From Thiemannella venezuelensis (GTDB taxonomy: Bacteria; Actinomycetota; Actinomycetes; Streptosporangiales; Streptosporangiaceae), in NCBI RefSeq assembly GCF_014203605.1, contig NZ_JACHJJ010000005.1, positions 1 to 64,000 of the forward strand: DNA of 64,000 nucleotides, given 5' to 3'. The stretch's first letter is position 1. Each line of letters starts with the position of its first letter. The notes beneath the pieces were generated by a model that was given only the letters and a program-made list of their open reading frames with translations, did no database searches and had not been told where the DNA came from. Below are positions 41,510 to 46,378 of the stretch, piece by piece. Made by a program: the position numbers and the translations under genes.

Positions 41510-43297
41510 ATGTCCCAGCAGTCCCAGCACATCCTGACCGCGGTCGCCTGGCCCTACGCCAACGGCCCCCGCCACATCGGGCACGTCTCCGGGTTCGGCG
41601 TGCCGTCCGACGTCTTCAGCCGCTACCAGCGGATGGCGGGCAACAAGGTCCTGATGGTCTCCGGGACCGACGAGCACGGCACGCCCATCCAGGTCCAGGC
41701 CGACAAGGAGGGCCTGGGCGTCCGGGAGGTCGCCGACCGCTACAACCGGGTGATCGCCGAGGACCTCACGGCCCTGGGGCTCTCCTACGACCTGTTCACC
41801 CGGACGACGACCGAGAACCACTACGCCGTGGCGCAGGAGATCTTCAAGGGCCTGCACGCCAACGGCTACATCTTCCCGAAGACCACGATGGGCGCGATCT
41901 CGCCGTCCACCGGCCGCACGCTGCCCGACCGCTACATCGAGGGCACCTGCCCGATCTGCTCCTACGACGGCGCCCGCGGCGACCAGTGCGACAACTGCGG
42001 CAACCAGCTCGACCCGATCGAGCTGGTCAACCCGGTCAGCCGGATCAACGGCGAGACGCCGGTCTTCGTGGAGACCGAGCACTTCATGCTCGACCTGCCC
42101 GCCTTCGCCGAGGTGCTCGGCACCTGGCTGCAGTCCAAGCAGGGCGAGTGGCGGCCCAACGTGCTGAAGTTCTCCCTCAACCTGCTCGGCGACCTGCACC
42201 CGCGGGCGATCACCCGCGACCTCGACTGGGGCGTGCCGATCCCGCTGGAGGGCTGGAGCGACCAGGCCAACAAGCGGCTCTACGTCTGGTTCGACGCGGT
42301 CATCGGCTACCTCAGCGCCTCCATCGAGTGGGCCCGCCGCTCCGGCGACCCGGACGCCTGGCGGCAGTGGTGGCAGAACCCCGAGGCCCGCGGCTACTAC
42401 TTCATGGGCAAGGACAACATCGTCTTCCACTCGGAGATCTGGCCGGCGCTGCTGCTCGGCTACAACGGCCAGGGCGCCCGCGGCGGCACGGCCGGCCCGC
42501 TCGGCGCGCTGAACCTGCCCTCCGAGGTCGTCTCCAGCGAGTTCCTGACCATGGAGGGGCGCAAGTTCTCCTCCTCCCGCCAGGTCGTCATCTACGTGCG
42601 CGACTTCCTGGAGCGCTACGACGCCGACGCGCTGCGCTACTACATCGCGGTCGCCGGGCCGGAGAACCAGGACACCGACTTCACCTGGTCGGAGTTCCTC
42701 AACCGCAACAACGGCGAGCTGGTGGCGGCCTGGGGCAACCTGGTCAACCGCTCGATCTCGATGGCCGCCAAGAACTTCGGGGCCGTCCCCGAGGCGGGTG
42801 AGCTGACCGACGCCGACCGCGCCCTGCTGGCCAGGTCCCGCGCGGCCTTCGCGCCGGTCGGCGCCGAGCTGAACCGCTCCCGGTTCAAGAACGCGGTCAC
42901 CGAGGCGTTCGACGTCGTCCGCGACGCCAACCGCTACCTCGCCGAGCAGGAGCCCTGGAAGATCAAGGACGACCCCGAGCGGGTCAAGTCCATCCTGCAC
43001 GTCGCCCTGCAGGTGGTCGACGACGCCAAGACCCTGCTCACCCCGTTCCTGCCCAACTCCTCCAACAAGATCCACGCGATGCTCGGGGGAACCGGCCTCT
43101 GGTCGGGCATGCCGGAGCTGCAGGAGGTGGAGGAGGGCGGCCGGAGCTACCCGGTCATCACCGGCTCCTACGAGGGCGGCGCCCGCTGGGAGTCCACCCC
43201 GATCCGGCCCGGCACCCCGCTCGCCCCGCCGACCCCGCTGTTCCGCAAGCTCGACCCCAAGATCGTCGATGAGGAGCTCGCCCGCCTCGGCGAGTAG
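41510..43297 (+). CDS. metG: methionyl-tRNA synthetase
   Basis: Charges tRNA-Met with methionine. The 595 residues contain the HIGH-type motif in [11 protein letters not shown], the zinc knuckle [18 protein letters not shown], and EGRKFSSSR, the KMSKS counterpart. The anticodon-binding helical domain follows; there is no C-terminal tRNA-binding extension. A TAGGCT hexamer ends seven bases before the ATG and no ribosome binding site is present, which suggests a leaderless transcript. A strong intrinsic terminator follows. Confidence 0.97.
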
Positions 43298-43389: not shown

Positions 43390-43422
43390 ATGGCCTCGGC
43401 TGCGAGAAACGCCCCATTACCT

Positions 43423-43479
43423 CATGATATTCATGAAGTCGTCCTATGAAAATCGCCTTGTCATCCTGTGAATTTCATA
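43423..43479 (+). repeat. upstream cluster of TGA(A/T)TTTCA-type motifs
   Basis: Three related elements before the DUF4143 gene: the palindrome CATGATATTCATG (43423-43435), CCTATGAAAATC (43443-43454) and CCTGTGAATTTCATAG (43464-43479). The second is the inverse of GATTTTCATGGG found after the gene, so the gene has short inverted flanks. The stretch is much richer in AT than its surroundings. Confidence 0.65.
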
Positions 43480-43503
43480 GTCTGACCTCGCTATCGTGGG
43501 TAC

Positions 43504-44778
43504 ATGAGCCGACTGATTCCCCGAGCGATCGAGCCTCTCCTGCACGAGCTCGCCTCCGGGCTGCGGATCGTCATCGTCAACGGGCCGCGACAGTCGGGGA
43601 AGACCACGCTCCTCCGGCAGGCCCACGCCGTGCGCGGCGGGCAGTACGTGACGTTGGACGATGAGAAGACGCTGGCCGCCGCGTTGGAGGATCCGGTCTC
43701 CTTCGTCAGGGGAAGGCCACGGCCGCTCATCATCGATGAGATCCAGCGGGGTGGCGACAAACTCGTGCGGGCCATCAAGATGGCCGTGGACGAGAGTCGA
43801 GACCGTGGCCAGTTCATCCTCTCAGGGTCCAGTAAGTTCCTCACCATCCCCACACTCTCCGAGTCGTTGGCGGGACGCGCCGGCTTCCTCGACCTGTGGC
43901 CCCTGTCGTTGTCCGAGCGAGTGGCAGGGCCGATCGACTTCATCGAGCGGGTCTTCGAGGAGCCGCAGTCGCTGATCGGGGCGCGATCGGAATGGAGCCG
44001 CGAGGACTACCTTGAAGCGATCATCCGAGGCGGCTATCCGGAGACGTTCCCACTCAAGTCGGACCTCGCGAGGTCCAGATGGTACGAGGGGTATGCGTCG
44101 ACGATCCTCAACCGTGACATCACCGACTTCGCGCAGGTGCACCACGTCGGAAGTCTTTCCCGGCTTCTCGTCCTGATCGCTGCGCGGGCCGGGAGCCCCG
44201 CTGTTCTGGCGGACCTGGCCCGCGACGCCGATCTGGGGAGGGACACCGTGCGCAACTACCTGAGCTACCTGAACATGGTGTTCCTCACCAACGACCTTCA
44301 GGGGTGGGCGGCGAATCTGAACACCCGGGCGGCCAAGACCCCGCGCACGTACATCACCGACTCGGGACTGGCCACCCAGCTTCTCTCCGTGACGCGTGCC
44401 AAACTGCGCACCCCCGGACACAGGGCGCTGGGAGGGCTGCTCGAGACCTTCGTGGTGGCAGAGCTGACCAAGCTCAAGGCCATGAGCCTGAGCCGCGTCG
44501 ACCTGTACTTCTACAGGGACAGCAACGACCATGAGGTGGACATCGTTCTGGAGAGTCCTCGCGGTGAGGTGGTCGCCATCGAGGTGAAGGCCAGCGTCTC
44601 TCCCGGGCTCGGGGCGGCCAAGCATCTGGTGTGGCTGAGGGAGAAGCTGGGAGACCGGTTCGTGGCCGGAGTGGTCCTCCATCTGGGAGAGCAGGCGCTC
44701 TCCTTCGGGGACCGGATTCTCTCGCTGCCGGTGTCGGCCCTGTGGGGACACACTCGTCTGCCGGGCTATACAGATTGA
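43504..44778 (+). CDS. AAA ATPase with DUF4143 C-terminal domain
   Basis: The 424-residue protein has an AAA_14-type ATPase domain (about 15-150: Walker A NGPRQSGKTTLL, Walker B PLIIDEIQ, sensor LSGSSKF). A winged-helix-like middle follows (DLARDADLGRDTVRNYLSYL), then a DUF4143 domain. HEVDIVLESPRGEVVAIEVKAS there has the Asp...Glu-x-Lys arrangement of a PD-(D/E)xK nuclease-like fold. The family is widespread, patchily distributed and of unknown function. TATCGT six bases before the ATG suggests a leaderless transcript. It stands alone between metG and tatD, flanked by repeated short motifs, with signs of recent acquisition. Confidence 0.88.
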   Translation: MSRLIPRAIEPLLHELASGLRIVIVNGPRQSGKTTLLRQAHAVRGGQYVTLDDEKTLAAALEDPVSFVRGRPRPLIIDEIQRGGDKLVRAIKMAVDESRDRGQFILSGSSKFLTIPTLSESLAGRAGFLDLWPLSLSERVAGPIDFIERVFEEPQSLIGARSEWSREDYLEAIIRGGYPETFPLKSDLARSRWYEGYASTILNRDITDFAQVHHVGSLSRLLVLIAARAGSPAVLADLARDADLGRDTVRNYLSYLNMVFLTNDLQGWAANLNTRAAKTPRTYITDSGLATQLLSVTRAKLRTPGHRALGGLLETFVVAELTKLKAMSLSRVDLYFYRDSNDHEVDIVLESPRGEVVAIEVKASVSPGLGAAKHLVWLREKLGDRFVAGVVLHLGEQALSFGDRILSLPVSALWGHTRLPGYTD

Positions 44779-44790
44779 CGGGTCACCTTA

Positions 44791-44866
44791 TGATTTTCAT
44801 GGGTCAGAAGCGTGATCTTCATGGGATGAGCTAACGATTTTCAGCTACGTCAGCAGGGTTTTCAGC
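44791..44866 (+). repeat. downstream cluster of TGATTTTCA-type motifs
   Basis: Four related elements after the DUF4143 gene: TGATTTTCATGGG (44791), TGATCTTCATGGG (44813), CGATTTTCAGC (44835) and GGGTTTTCAGC (44856), spaced 21-22 bases start to start. The regular spacing equals two helical turns, as for co-operative protein binding. The rest of the interval to about 45075 holds no convincing gene. Confidence 0.7.
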
Positions 44867-45075
44867 TGTTGCGCGTCCGGTTGATGGACTATGGCCCGCT
44901 CTCGATGACGCGGTAGCGGAGAGTGGGAGAAAGTGGTCGGTTGGAGGGCCGGAGGCAAGCCGGCAGGACGTCGGAGTCGGCTTGGCGGTGTTCCACGGGC
45001 CGGCCGCCTCACTCGACGGGATCGTTCCGCCGGCCGTCGTCGGTCCCGTCGAGATCGCCCTGCCCTGGTCGCCCC

Positions 45076-45300
45076 TCAGCGCTGGGTGGGGGTCTGGTTC
45101 ACGTCACGCCGGTAGGCGTAGTGGATGAGCCCTTTGTGGAACTTGCCCACCTTGTCGTACAGCGCGCGAGCCGGGGCGTCTTCCAGCGTGTTCCAGTAGA
45201 GGCCTGGGAAGCCGCGCTCCTTGGCATCCCGCGCCACCCACTCGATCACCGCCGTCGCGATACCCTGCCGCCGGACTTCCGCATCCACGAAATCAGCGGT
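45076..45300 (-). pseudogene. GNAT acetyltransferase lacking its N-terminal part
   Basis: About 75 codons encode the second half of a GNAT fold: DAEVRRQGIATAVIEWVARDAKERGF (acetyl-CoA loop and helix), GLYWNTLEDAPARALYDKVG, and an ending IHYAYRRD. The N-terminal half (about 70 residues) is missing. Upstream of residue Asp the frame runs into the TGATTTTCAG motif cluster at 45308. A normal gene was apparently cut at the edge of the island. Confidence 0.75.
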
Positions 45301-45307
45301 GGGCTGC

Positions 45308-45365
45308 CTGATTTTCAGCTGGTGCAACCGCTGATTTTCAGGCACTATGACCGTCATTTTTCAGG
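45308..45365 (+). repeat. third cluster of TGATTTTCA-type motifs
   Basis: CTGATTTTCAGC (45308), CTGATTTTCAGG (45331) and TCATTTTTCAGG (45354), again 23 bases apart. These abut the truncated end of the GNAT gene. Together with the clusters at 43423 and 44791 they bracket a segment of about 1.9 kb. Confidence 0.7.
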
Positions 45366-45523
45366 AAGCGCTCCGGGACTCCGGGGCCGGGGCCGGGTCG
45401 GTGCTCAGGGCTCGGTGGCCTGCCGGGTGGAGCGCCGGTGAGAAACGCGGCGGTGGGTTCTCACGTTCTGTGGAGAGACGCTCTCAGGACACCCGCCGGC
45501 CGGCTGGCGGTAGGTTGGGCCGT

Positions 45524-46378
45524 GTGACCACGATGCCCGCCGCGCCGGAAGCGCTGACCAGCGAAGTCTTCGACAGCCACTGCCACCTCGACATCATGGT
45601 GGGCAACCGCCAGGCGTCCTCGGGTGATCCCGTGGCGCAGGCCGCGCAGGCGGCCGGGGCGAGTGTGGAGAAGATCCTCGAGGAGTCCCGGGCGGTCGGG
45701 GTGACCCGGCTGGTCACGATCGGCTACGACCTGGCCTCCTCGCGGTGGAACGCCGACGTGGCCAGAATCCACCGCGACGTCTACGCCGGGGTGGCGATCC
45801 ACCCCAACGAGGCGCACGCCGCGACCCCCGAGGTCCTGGCGGAGATCGAGGAGCTCGCGGGCGAGCCCCAGGTCAGGGCGGTCGGGGAGACCGGCCTCGA
45901 CTACTACCGCGACTGGGCCTCCAGGGACGACCAGCACGCCTCCTTCCGGGCGCACATCGAGATCGCCAAGCGGACCGGCAAGGCCCTGGTCATCCACGAC
46001 CGGGAGGCCCACGACGACGTGCTCCGCGTGCTCGCCGACCAGGGCGCGCCCGACGCGGTGGTCTTCCACAGCTACTCCGGTGACGCCGAGATGGCCGAGA
46101 AGTGCGCCGAGGCCGGCTACTTCATGTCCTTCTCCGGCCCGGTCACCTACAAGAACGCCGGCTACCTTCGCGAGGCGGCCCGGGTGGCGCCCAGGGAGCT
46201 GATCCTGGTCGAGACCGACGCGCCCTACCTGCCGCCCATGCCGCACCGGGGCAAGCCGAACGCGCCCTACCTCATCCCGCTGGTCGTGCGCTGCCTGGCC
46301 GAGGTCAAGGGCATGGAGGCCGGCGAGCTGACCGCCGCGATCAGCGCGAACGGGGAGCGGGCCTTCGGGGCGTGGTGA
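45524..46378 (+). CDS. tatD: TatD-family metal-dependent hydrolase/DNase
   Basis: The 284-residue TIM-barrel hydrolase has the family pattern VFDSHCHLD (His-x-His), AVGETGLDYYRD, ALVIHDREAHDD, VFHSYSGD and LVETDAPYLPP. TatD proteins act as 3'-5' exonucleases or metal-dependent deoxyribonucleases. TAGGTT seven bases before the GTG start indicates a leaderless transcript. In many actinobacteria it lies between metG and rpf-rsmA-ispE; here metG is separated by the ATPase island. Confidence 0.95.
   Translation: MTTMPAAPEALTSEVFDSHCHLDIMVGNRQASSGDPVAQAAQAAGASVEKILEESRAVGVTRLVTIGYDLASSRWNADVARIHRDVYAGVAIHPNEAHAATPEVLAEIEELAGEPQVRAVGETGLDYYRDWASRDDQHASFRAHIEIAKRTGKALVIHDREAHDDVLRVLADQGAPDAVVFHSYSGDAEMAEKCAEAGYFMSFSGPVTYKNAGYLREAARVAPRELILVETDAPYLPPMPHRGKPNAPYLIPLVVRCLAEVKGMEAGELTAAISANGERAFGAW

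Follow-up and report, generated by a model that had tools for sequence, protein, structure and literature searches.

Known relatives of the element

PDC-S01, an ATPase fused to a member of the PD-(D/E)-X-K group, is credited in the accessible sections of PMC12988326 with 29,494 bacterial and 9,986 archaeal instances, and is reported there to rank fourth in frequency among prokaryotic defence types. Abundant by that count, it has no known mechanism. We analysed one such gene of Thiemannella venezuelensis, a DUF4143 ATPase gene (43504..44778, plus strand, 424 aa) whose product matches the PADLOC model of PDC-S01. It lies in a window that spans bases 1 to 64,000 of contig 5, in a genome of 8,183,972 bases in 85 contigs, and is preceded by an array of short repeated motifs. 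The accessible sections of PMC12988326 and PMC13356809 mention for PDC-S01 neither arrays, nor a coupling of motif and protein, nor cassette mobility, and limited searches turned up no published account of the arrays (most subscription papers and the source preprint of PDC-S01 were out of reach). The DUF4143/PDC-S01 protein family is already known as a defence candidate; its upstream arrays are the new part. We propose, with a probability of roughly 0.6, that the gene and its array form a mobile one-gene cassette, and that the protein binds the array of its own cassette chiefly to control itself.

Several described systems share parts of this arrangement. The best fold matches of the window protein model are archaeal ATPases (2qen, 2fna) and the STAND ATPases of the NLR and CED-4 type, but these matches end at about residue 300, where the window protein adds a PD-(D/E)xK domain. 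STAND regulators of the MalT type form ATP-dependent multimers on repeated promoter boxes. A multimer on boxes is also what we propose here, although with a gene-specific motif and a nuclease domain. Plasmid iterons, direct repeats about two helical turns apart beside the gene of their Rep initiator, resemble the arrays in spacing and adjacency; no Rep family was found among the Pfam matches of the window protein at E 0.001. The transposon Tn7 uses a PD-(D/E)xK nuclease plus an AAA+ ATPase (TnsA and TnsC), and MuB of Mu is a related comparison (MuB, 8xvc, is a weak fold match to the window model, Z 11.5). Tn7 and Mu differ from the present case in that the window protein is a single fusion, the unit lacks a DDE-type transposase and the repeats lie at one end. 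As in integrase-type elements, one unit of this family, in Agrobacterium, has direct-repeat ends, but it encloses no integrase coding sequence.

Arrays precede DUF4143 genes in many genomes

To detect arrays, we chained motif copies at permitted steps of 21-24 nucleotides (nt) and compared the chain scores with 95% and 99% shuffle nulls. This procedure replaced a search for single 11-mers, which in the window and some of its near relatives had returned the terminator hairpin of metG or GC-rich repeats. The family set covers 297 genomes, 98 with a match at E 1e-40 or better; 60 loci were fetched first and 56 DUF4143 places added later, a non-random sample chosen from the listed matches. The cross-phylum set holds the best 80 of 507 matches of one scan, of which 77 were usable. 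Altogether, 234 of 249 loci could be used (of the rest, 3 lacked a match and 12 had a late or absent start). A pseudogene of the window's own genome (L008) was excluded from all counts, and two cross-phylum loci (L153, L155), 100% protein-identical to family loci (L110, L299), are counted twice. The viral set includes duplicates: it has 36 distinct upstream regions, 11 scoring over 6.3 and 7 over 8.3.

Upstream arrays exceeded the 95% null in 104 of the 112 family loci (100 above the 99% null), in 41 of 77 loci of other bacteria (33 above 99%) and in 14 of 41 loci on viral contigs (8 above 99%). The same was found for all four counted loci of the window's own genome, three of them above the 99% null. 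This genome has five DUF4143 matches including the window gene. The window motif was not found at any of the four others, each of which has a distinct repeated motif directly upstream at steps of about 23 nt. The sequence-only reading from which we started would have been refuted by DUF4143 genes without any flanking motif. Within limits, the outcome favours it: the three other intact genes have arrays scoring 16.5 (L007), 16.6 (L009) and 27.9 (L010), and the broken gene, L008, still shows one by eye.

The spacing is regular. Among 60 loci whose start was usable in the first analysis (the window, own-genome and fetched loci together), the 220 nt upstream of the gene held 961 direct-repeat pairs at a distance of 23 nt against 14.6 in shuffles, with further peaks at 46 nt (589 vs 15.0) and 69 nt (200 vs 5.4). 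No 23-nt series was found in the downstream, gene-internal or distant stretches of these loci; the distant and gene-internal ones show codon-like multiples of three. Within arrays, steps of 23 nt (368) and 22 nt (117) prevail over those of 21 (5) and 24 (2), whereas control chains in coding DNA have mainly 21- and 24-nt steps. Real flank sequence served as a control: a score of 8.3 was exceeded by 2.4% of 1220 family control tiles against 89.6% of 115 loci (three own-genome loci included), and by 0.3% of 1033 cross-phylum tiles against 42.9% of 77 loci. The lower threshold alone is lenient, since 12.5% of the family control tiles exceed 6.3. The cross-phylum records come from Acidobacteria, Dehalococcoidia, Turneriella, Verrucomicrobia, Comamonadaceae, Rhizobium, Agrobacterium, Dyadobacter and Mycobacterium gastri, and examples of these groups carry arrays scoring over 8.3.

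The arrays are not wholly exclusive to DUF4143 genes. The pattern AATGTCGG-N13..16-AATGTCGG occurs at 12 places in 295 genomes, six of them at three DUF4143 arrays. The others are a partial DUF4143 match (L311), an orphan array (L310), a copy at another open reading frame (ORF; L313) and three GC-rich repeats, for one of which (L312) the surroundings were viewed. The orphan AATGTCGG-type array spans approximately positions 3850-4400 of L310, with no DUF4143 match in the 8.5 kb around it, nor in the genome at E 1e-40. In L313, on the reverse strand, three TGTCGG-type copies stand just upstream of an ORF beginning MDEDAPASRVDEAAAADVLRR..., which has no DUF4143 match.

Direction and position of the arrays

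We then used the array of each of 136 loci as its own search model. Upstream DNA had 17.05 own-motif matches per kb, but the gene, the downstream side (0.15) and more distant DNA only 0.08-0.15. The upstream density is partly circular, because the model derives from the upstream region, but the low density elsewhere is not. Upstream matches lie on the plus strand in 610 cases and on the minus strand in 16; arrays are direct copies, three to eight each (median four). The median distance from the start of the last copy to the ORF is 48 nt in the family (mostly 36-54 nt) and 27 nt in the other loci, and in several loci the copy reaches into the start codon. In 25 of the 39 loci of one motif group, a -10-like TANNNT lies 33-35 nt past the last core; in a third group it lies 14 nt past it in 3 of 12. 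The array is thus likely promoter-proximal. Downstream arrays were considered as a general feature and rejected, given the low own-motif density and the lack of a 23-nt series there.

The motif follows the protein

Motif similarity between genomes rises with protein identity: it is 0.16-0.28 below 50% identity, 0.38-0.40 at 50-60%, 0.52 at 60-70%, 0.58 at 70-80%, 0.71 at 80-95% and 0.91 above 95% (overall r 0.74). DNA 200 nt farther upstream, taken as a control with at most 400 pairs per bin, stays at 0.29-0.35 from 35% to 95% identity and reaches 0.51 above. A regression over 135 loci places the signal in the AAA region and the middle region, read as a winged helix-turn-helix (wHTH), while the nuclease adds nothing; none of 200 label permutations attained the AAA or wHTH coefficients. 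Sliding-window partial correlations are weak (0.17 at best), so we claim no residue code.

These comparisons suggest that each protein probably recognises its own motif. The sequence-only reading had supposed that the product may bind the repeated motif, and this gains indirect support, since other DUF4143 genes show the same spacing with motifs of their own that follow the protein. A gene that is widespread in bacteria and has so far only been suspected of acting against phages carries a private upstream array. Its coupling to the protein is a first concrete handle on what the PDC-S01 ATPase contacts, with a binding site, a swappable specificity code and a control circuit as its predictions; the roughly one hundred natural pairs of protein and motif could also serve for learning a DNA recognition code.

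An ATPase with a nuclease-fold domain

The sequence-only reading named an AAA/DUF4143 ATPase with a PD-(D/E)xK-like motif, and both parts hold. Pfam scores are 131.5 bits for DUF4143 (cut-off 28.1) and 79.9 bits for AAA_14 (cut-off 27). The AAA+ domain (43561..43923, plus strand, approximately residues 20-140) has Walker A G27xxGK33 and Walker B D78E79, and G27, G32, K33, D78 and E79 are invariant in 26 sequences. A putative winged-helix-like region follows (44119..44373, plus strand, approximately residues 206-290, with boundaries chosen by us), and then a PD-(D/E)xK-type nuclease domain (44401..44748, plus strand, approximately residues 300-415). The nuclease-type residues E314, E320, D346 and K362 are invariant, and E360 nearly so, in 26 homologues.

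The AlphaFold2 model built with the 26 homologues has a predicted local distance difference test (pLDDT) score of 90.3 and a predicted template modelling (pTM) score of 0.92. Residues 1 to about 300 match the archaeal ATPases 2qen (Z 16.2, root-mean-square deviation (rmsd) 5.1, 253 aligned) and 2fna (Z 14.7), followed by NLR and CED-4 STAND proteins (RPP1, Z 14.4). The C-terminal 135 residues, modelled alone (pLDDT 88.4), match PD-(D/E)xK enzymes, namely Can2 (8q41; Z 9.9, rmsd 3.9, 120 aligned), McrC (6hz4; Z 8.6) and EndoMS (Z 7.9); Foldseek alone is weak for this domain (best E 3.6e-3). The protein belongs to the STAND-like AAA+ ATPases and carries a domain of PD-(D/E)xK fold. NCBIfam, PHROGs and a sequence search of the PDB gave no match for it. 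In PADLOC, PDLC04790 matched over residues 1-416 (E 5.7e-148), and all seven listed families are PDC-S01 models. PADLOC lists PDC-S01 (DUF4143/AAA_14, COG1373) as a single-gene candidate for phage defence, and an anti-phage role is plausible. A phage origin was considered and rejected: eight phage records matched, all below 33% identity, and PHROGs is without a match.

Array and gene move together

Close relatives are mostly in different neighbourhoods. At least one flank is shared by 12 of 493 pairs at 70-80% protein identity, 26 of 221 at 80-90% and 23 of 49 above 90%. Among 147 pairs at least 85% identical, 130 do not extend beyond 400 nt outside the unit; of these, 113 have the left edge of the shared block no more than 25 nt from the start of the shorter array, and 119 have its right edge equally close to the stop. 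Such edges may mark the ends of insertions or only the limit of selection. The interval between metG and tatD, occupied in the window, is empty in G001, from the window's genus, and in G045, from another genus. Together with the varied neighbourhoods and the contexts of the Agrobacterium unit, these empty sites support the one-gene mobile behaviour that the sequence-only reading had suspected.

Agrobacterium makes the stronger case for movement. A 1.49-kb unit of array and gene is shared there by nine loci, one on an A. cavarae contig and eight on plasmid records; its copies are at least 95.8% identical, and five different contexts adjoin it on the left and six on the right. What these loci have in common begins about 90 nt ahead of the array and ends 32-40 nt past the stop codon, with imperfect direct repeats like GGTTCGATTCC..TTCAAG at both ends. 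In a related plasmid (L342), the right flank is present and the unit is missing. The gene is the sole annotated coding sequence between the repeats in L339, L340, L341, L347, L349, L350 and L351, with no integrase (the L348 record carries no annotation). The end repeats are reminiscent of a tRNA T-arm, and ARAGORN found no tRNA at the unit ends. Direct-repeat attachment sites were found only in the Agrobacterium clade, and none at the window locus; unit ends vary between clades.

The empty site for L337 is not minimal (2.1 kb vs 44 nt), the L007 site in G001 compares as 2.6 kb to 32 nt, and no useful empty site was obtained for L092 in its own genome. Loss of a cassette leaves scars, as in G001, where a 132-nt remnant of the L009 DUF4143 gene persists (L358:4884-5014).

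tRNA 3' ends were considered as a general target and rejected: a strict T-arm motif lies within 150 nt past the stop in only 5 of 120 family and 1 of 80 other loci, and four of the five family matches are at one tRNA-SeC-type site. In five loci (L107, L290, L293, L303 and L056), the 3' ends of tRNA-SeC (four) or tRNA-His (one) face the DUF4143 stop at about 10-60 nt.

The arrays of the window locus

The ten motif copies listed by the sequence-only reading are present: three upstream of the gene, four downstream and three at the far edge. Array 1 (43420..43476, plus strand) has three direct copies, CCTCATGATATTC, TCCTATGAAAATC and TCCTGTGAATTTC, the last 40 nt before the ATG. As 13-mers they start at 43420, 43442 and 43464 (steps 22 and 22), and they can be read as the direct copies ATGATATTC, ATGAAAATC and GTGAATTTC. 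Reading by eye, without a promoter tool, gives a possible -10 element, TATCGT (43492..43497, plus strand), 7 nt ahead of the ATG. Array 2 (44787..44864, minus strand in the best reading) has four copies and is atypical for the family; its 13-mers start at 44787, 44809, 44831 and 44852 (steps 22, 22 and 21). Array 3 (45306..45364, minus strand), probably the remainder of array 2, has three, at 45306, 45329 and 45352 (steps 23 and 23). Against a background of 615 window tiles (99th percentile 8.3, maximum 11.45), array 2 scores 10.45 and array 3 scores 8.3.

The sequence-only reading would also have been refuted had its motif clusters been common at unrelated loci, and this check too favours it: TGATTTTCA occurs six times in the 8,183,972-base genome, three of them in the island. 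Looser searches return more: the 8-mer GATTTTCA, with at most one mismatch, has 18 matches across the window, nine within 43400-45370, and GATTTTCAKS, with two mismatches permitted, has 72 window matches against 41.6 expected, many of them isolated and outside the island.

The nearest flanking elements had been described as inverted. The orientation is ambiguous because the motif is near-palindromic (ATGA-nnn-TCAT); the best reading of arrays 2 and 3 is the complement of GAAAATC. Array 1 would be the cognate array of the window gene. In G132, from another genus (that of G045), an orthologue 96% identical in amino acids occupies the same site with array 1 conserved.

A proposed self-controlling cassette and its alternatives

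In the mechanism we favour, the gene belongs to a very large family of mobile cassettes, each made of a tandem array of a short motif of its own at 22-23-nt steps and, behind it, an ORF encoding a STAND-like AAA+ ATPase with a winged-helix-like middle and a PD-(D/E)xK nuclease domain. Molecules of the ATPase would line up on adjacent sites of their own array and could from there control their own promoter, restraining or storing a dangerous nuclease. If the ATPase binds and acts in this way, each cassette would recognise only itself.

Several observations weigh against this proposal. Array 1 alone is weak, with a score of 7.3 at the 95th percentile of the window tiles; its credibility is raised by the G132 orthologous locus, which retains all three copies, though the automatic score there is only 3.15. 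The closest listed neighbours of the window gene (45-54% identity) carry unrelated motifs (similarity 0.07-0.37), and paralogues of the same genome are not always dissimilar in motif (mean similarity 0.33, 43 pairs). Motif and protein descend jointly, so that part of their correlation is shared ancestry and the pairs are non-independent; that the control 200 nt upstream stays low argues that the correlation is more than this. The 95% null is failed by 36 of 77 cross-phylum and 27 of 41 viral-contig loci; in the cross-phylum ones, arrays may be absent, the start misplaced or the copies degraded. TANNNT stands at a fixed distance in only 1 of 24 loci of the second motif group. As for the unit, under stricter alignment the shared block often gave out inside the array or at the start codon (its left edge lies a median of +82 nt from the first copy), and the left edge in Agrobacterium, about 90 nt outside the array, separates the array end from the unit end.

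The private array of about 23-nt steps could also do both jobs, serving self-control and mobilising array and gene into new sites, with motif and protein co-diversifying so that cassettes of one cell avoid cross-reaction; we regard such a self-addressed element as a tentative possibility, on the unlikely side. Doubtful, too, is an element that simply mobilises itself, the AAA+/nuclease protein cutting or pairing DNA to move array and ORF, with the array as recognition end. Array plus ORF is indeed the block common to non-syntenic relatives, some relatives have empty sites, the Agrobacterium unit carries only this ORF between its GGTTCGATTCC-like repeats in several contexts, and AAA+ and PD-(D/E)xK domains, on separate proteins, act in Tn7-type transposition. 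Against it, the array stands at a single end, with no downstream array in the family, the unit ends differ from clade to clade, and the repeat ends resemble T-arms as used by integrases acting in trans, though no tRNA gene is there.

On the self-control reading, the ATPase would be the protein that binds; a different host regulator might instead bind the arrays as ordinary operators of these genes. We consider this improbable: paralogues of one genome differ in motif, the motif tracks the protein across genera and phyla, it is absent elsewhere in the locus, and TGATTTTCA is nearly absent elsewhere in its own genome. Equally improbable is an array acting in a leader RNA through which the product controls its own translation. 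The cross-phylum median of 27 nt and the loci whose last copy runs into the start codon would suit it; the last copy of the window family, mostly 36-54 nt upstream where very short leaders are likely, does not, and the domains suggest DNA binding. Very improbable is the unit bracketed by inverted terminal clusters that the sequence-only reading proposed, which describes the window locus accurately but not its relatives: the densities of 17.05 per kb upstream and 0.15 downstream contradict bracketing as a general architecture, and the downstream and far clusters are particular to the window, the G132 orthologue lacking the far cluster and the GNAT segment. Chance or composition is the least probable reading and, for the family, is contradicted: although array 1 alone only reaches the 95th percentile and coding DNA yields false chains of 21 or 24 nt, the excess at 22-23 nt is family-wide and upstream only.

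History of the metG-tatD site

The window gene lies between metG (41510..43297, plus strand; a label of the sequence-only reading, not profile-checked) and tatD (TatD_DNase; 45527..46378, plus strand). Beyond array 2 stands a GNAT acetyltransferase remnant (45076..45357, minus strand) that lacks its N-terminal half, as the sequence-only reading saw: it matches only positions 66-115 of 116 of Acetyltransf_1. A 14-nt imperfect direct repeat (13/14 identical; 44859..44872 and 45312..45325) bounds only the GNAT-containing insert; inverted repeats of the island were also listed. Arrays 2 and 3, about 450 nt apart, score 15.6 when joined. Because of this score and of the repeat at 44859/45312, they were probably a single secondary, atypical array, once continuous, into which the segment carrying the GNAT remnant was later inserted.

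About 646 nt of the window, comprising three array 2 copies, the GNAT remnant and array 3, are absent from G132. Nucleotide identity between window and G132 is 94.6% for metG, 94.5% for the DUF4143 gene and 91.1% for tatD. These values are alike, so the gene is about as old at the site as its flanks or arrived with them by recombination, and the patchy occupancy of the site is explained by losses or exchange. For the array behind the window gene, a lost convergent DUF4143 gene is one possibility, conceivable because one convergent pair exists: in G126 (L292, contig 95), two DUF4143 genes converge across a gap of about 108 nt.

Among 61 genomes, relatives of the GNAT fragment turned up in three others, with 68% identity at best. 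Against AAC(3)-I acetyltransferases, the remnant scores 31.6 bits (cut-off 200), a weak, C-terminal match that implies no resistance function. In two other genera (L119, L122), the interval between metG and tatD carries GTTCGTGATCATGCAC and GTGCATGATCACGAAC repeats in both orientations, which differ from the DUF4143 motif.

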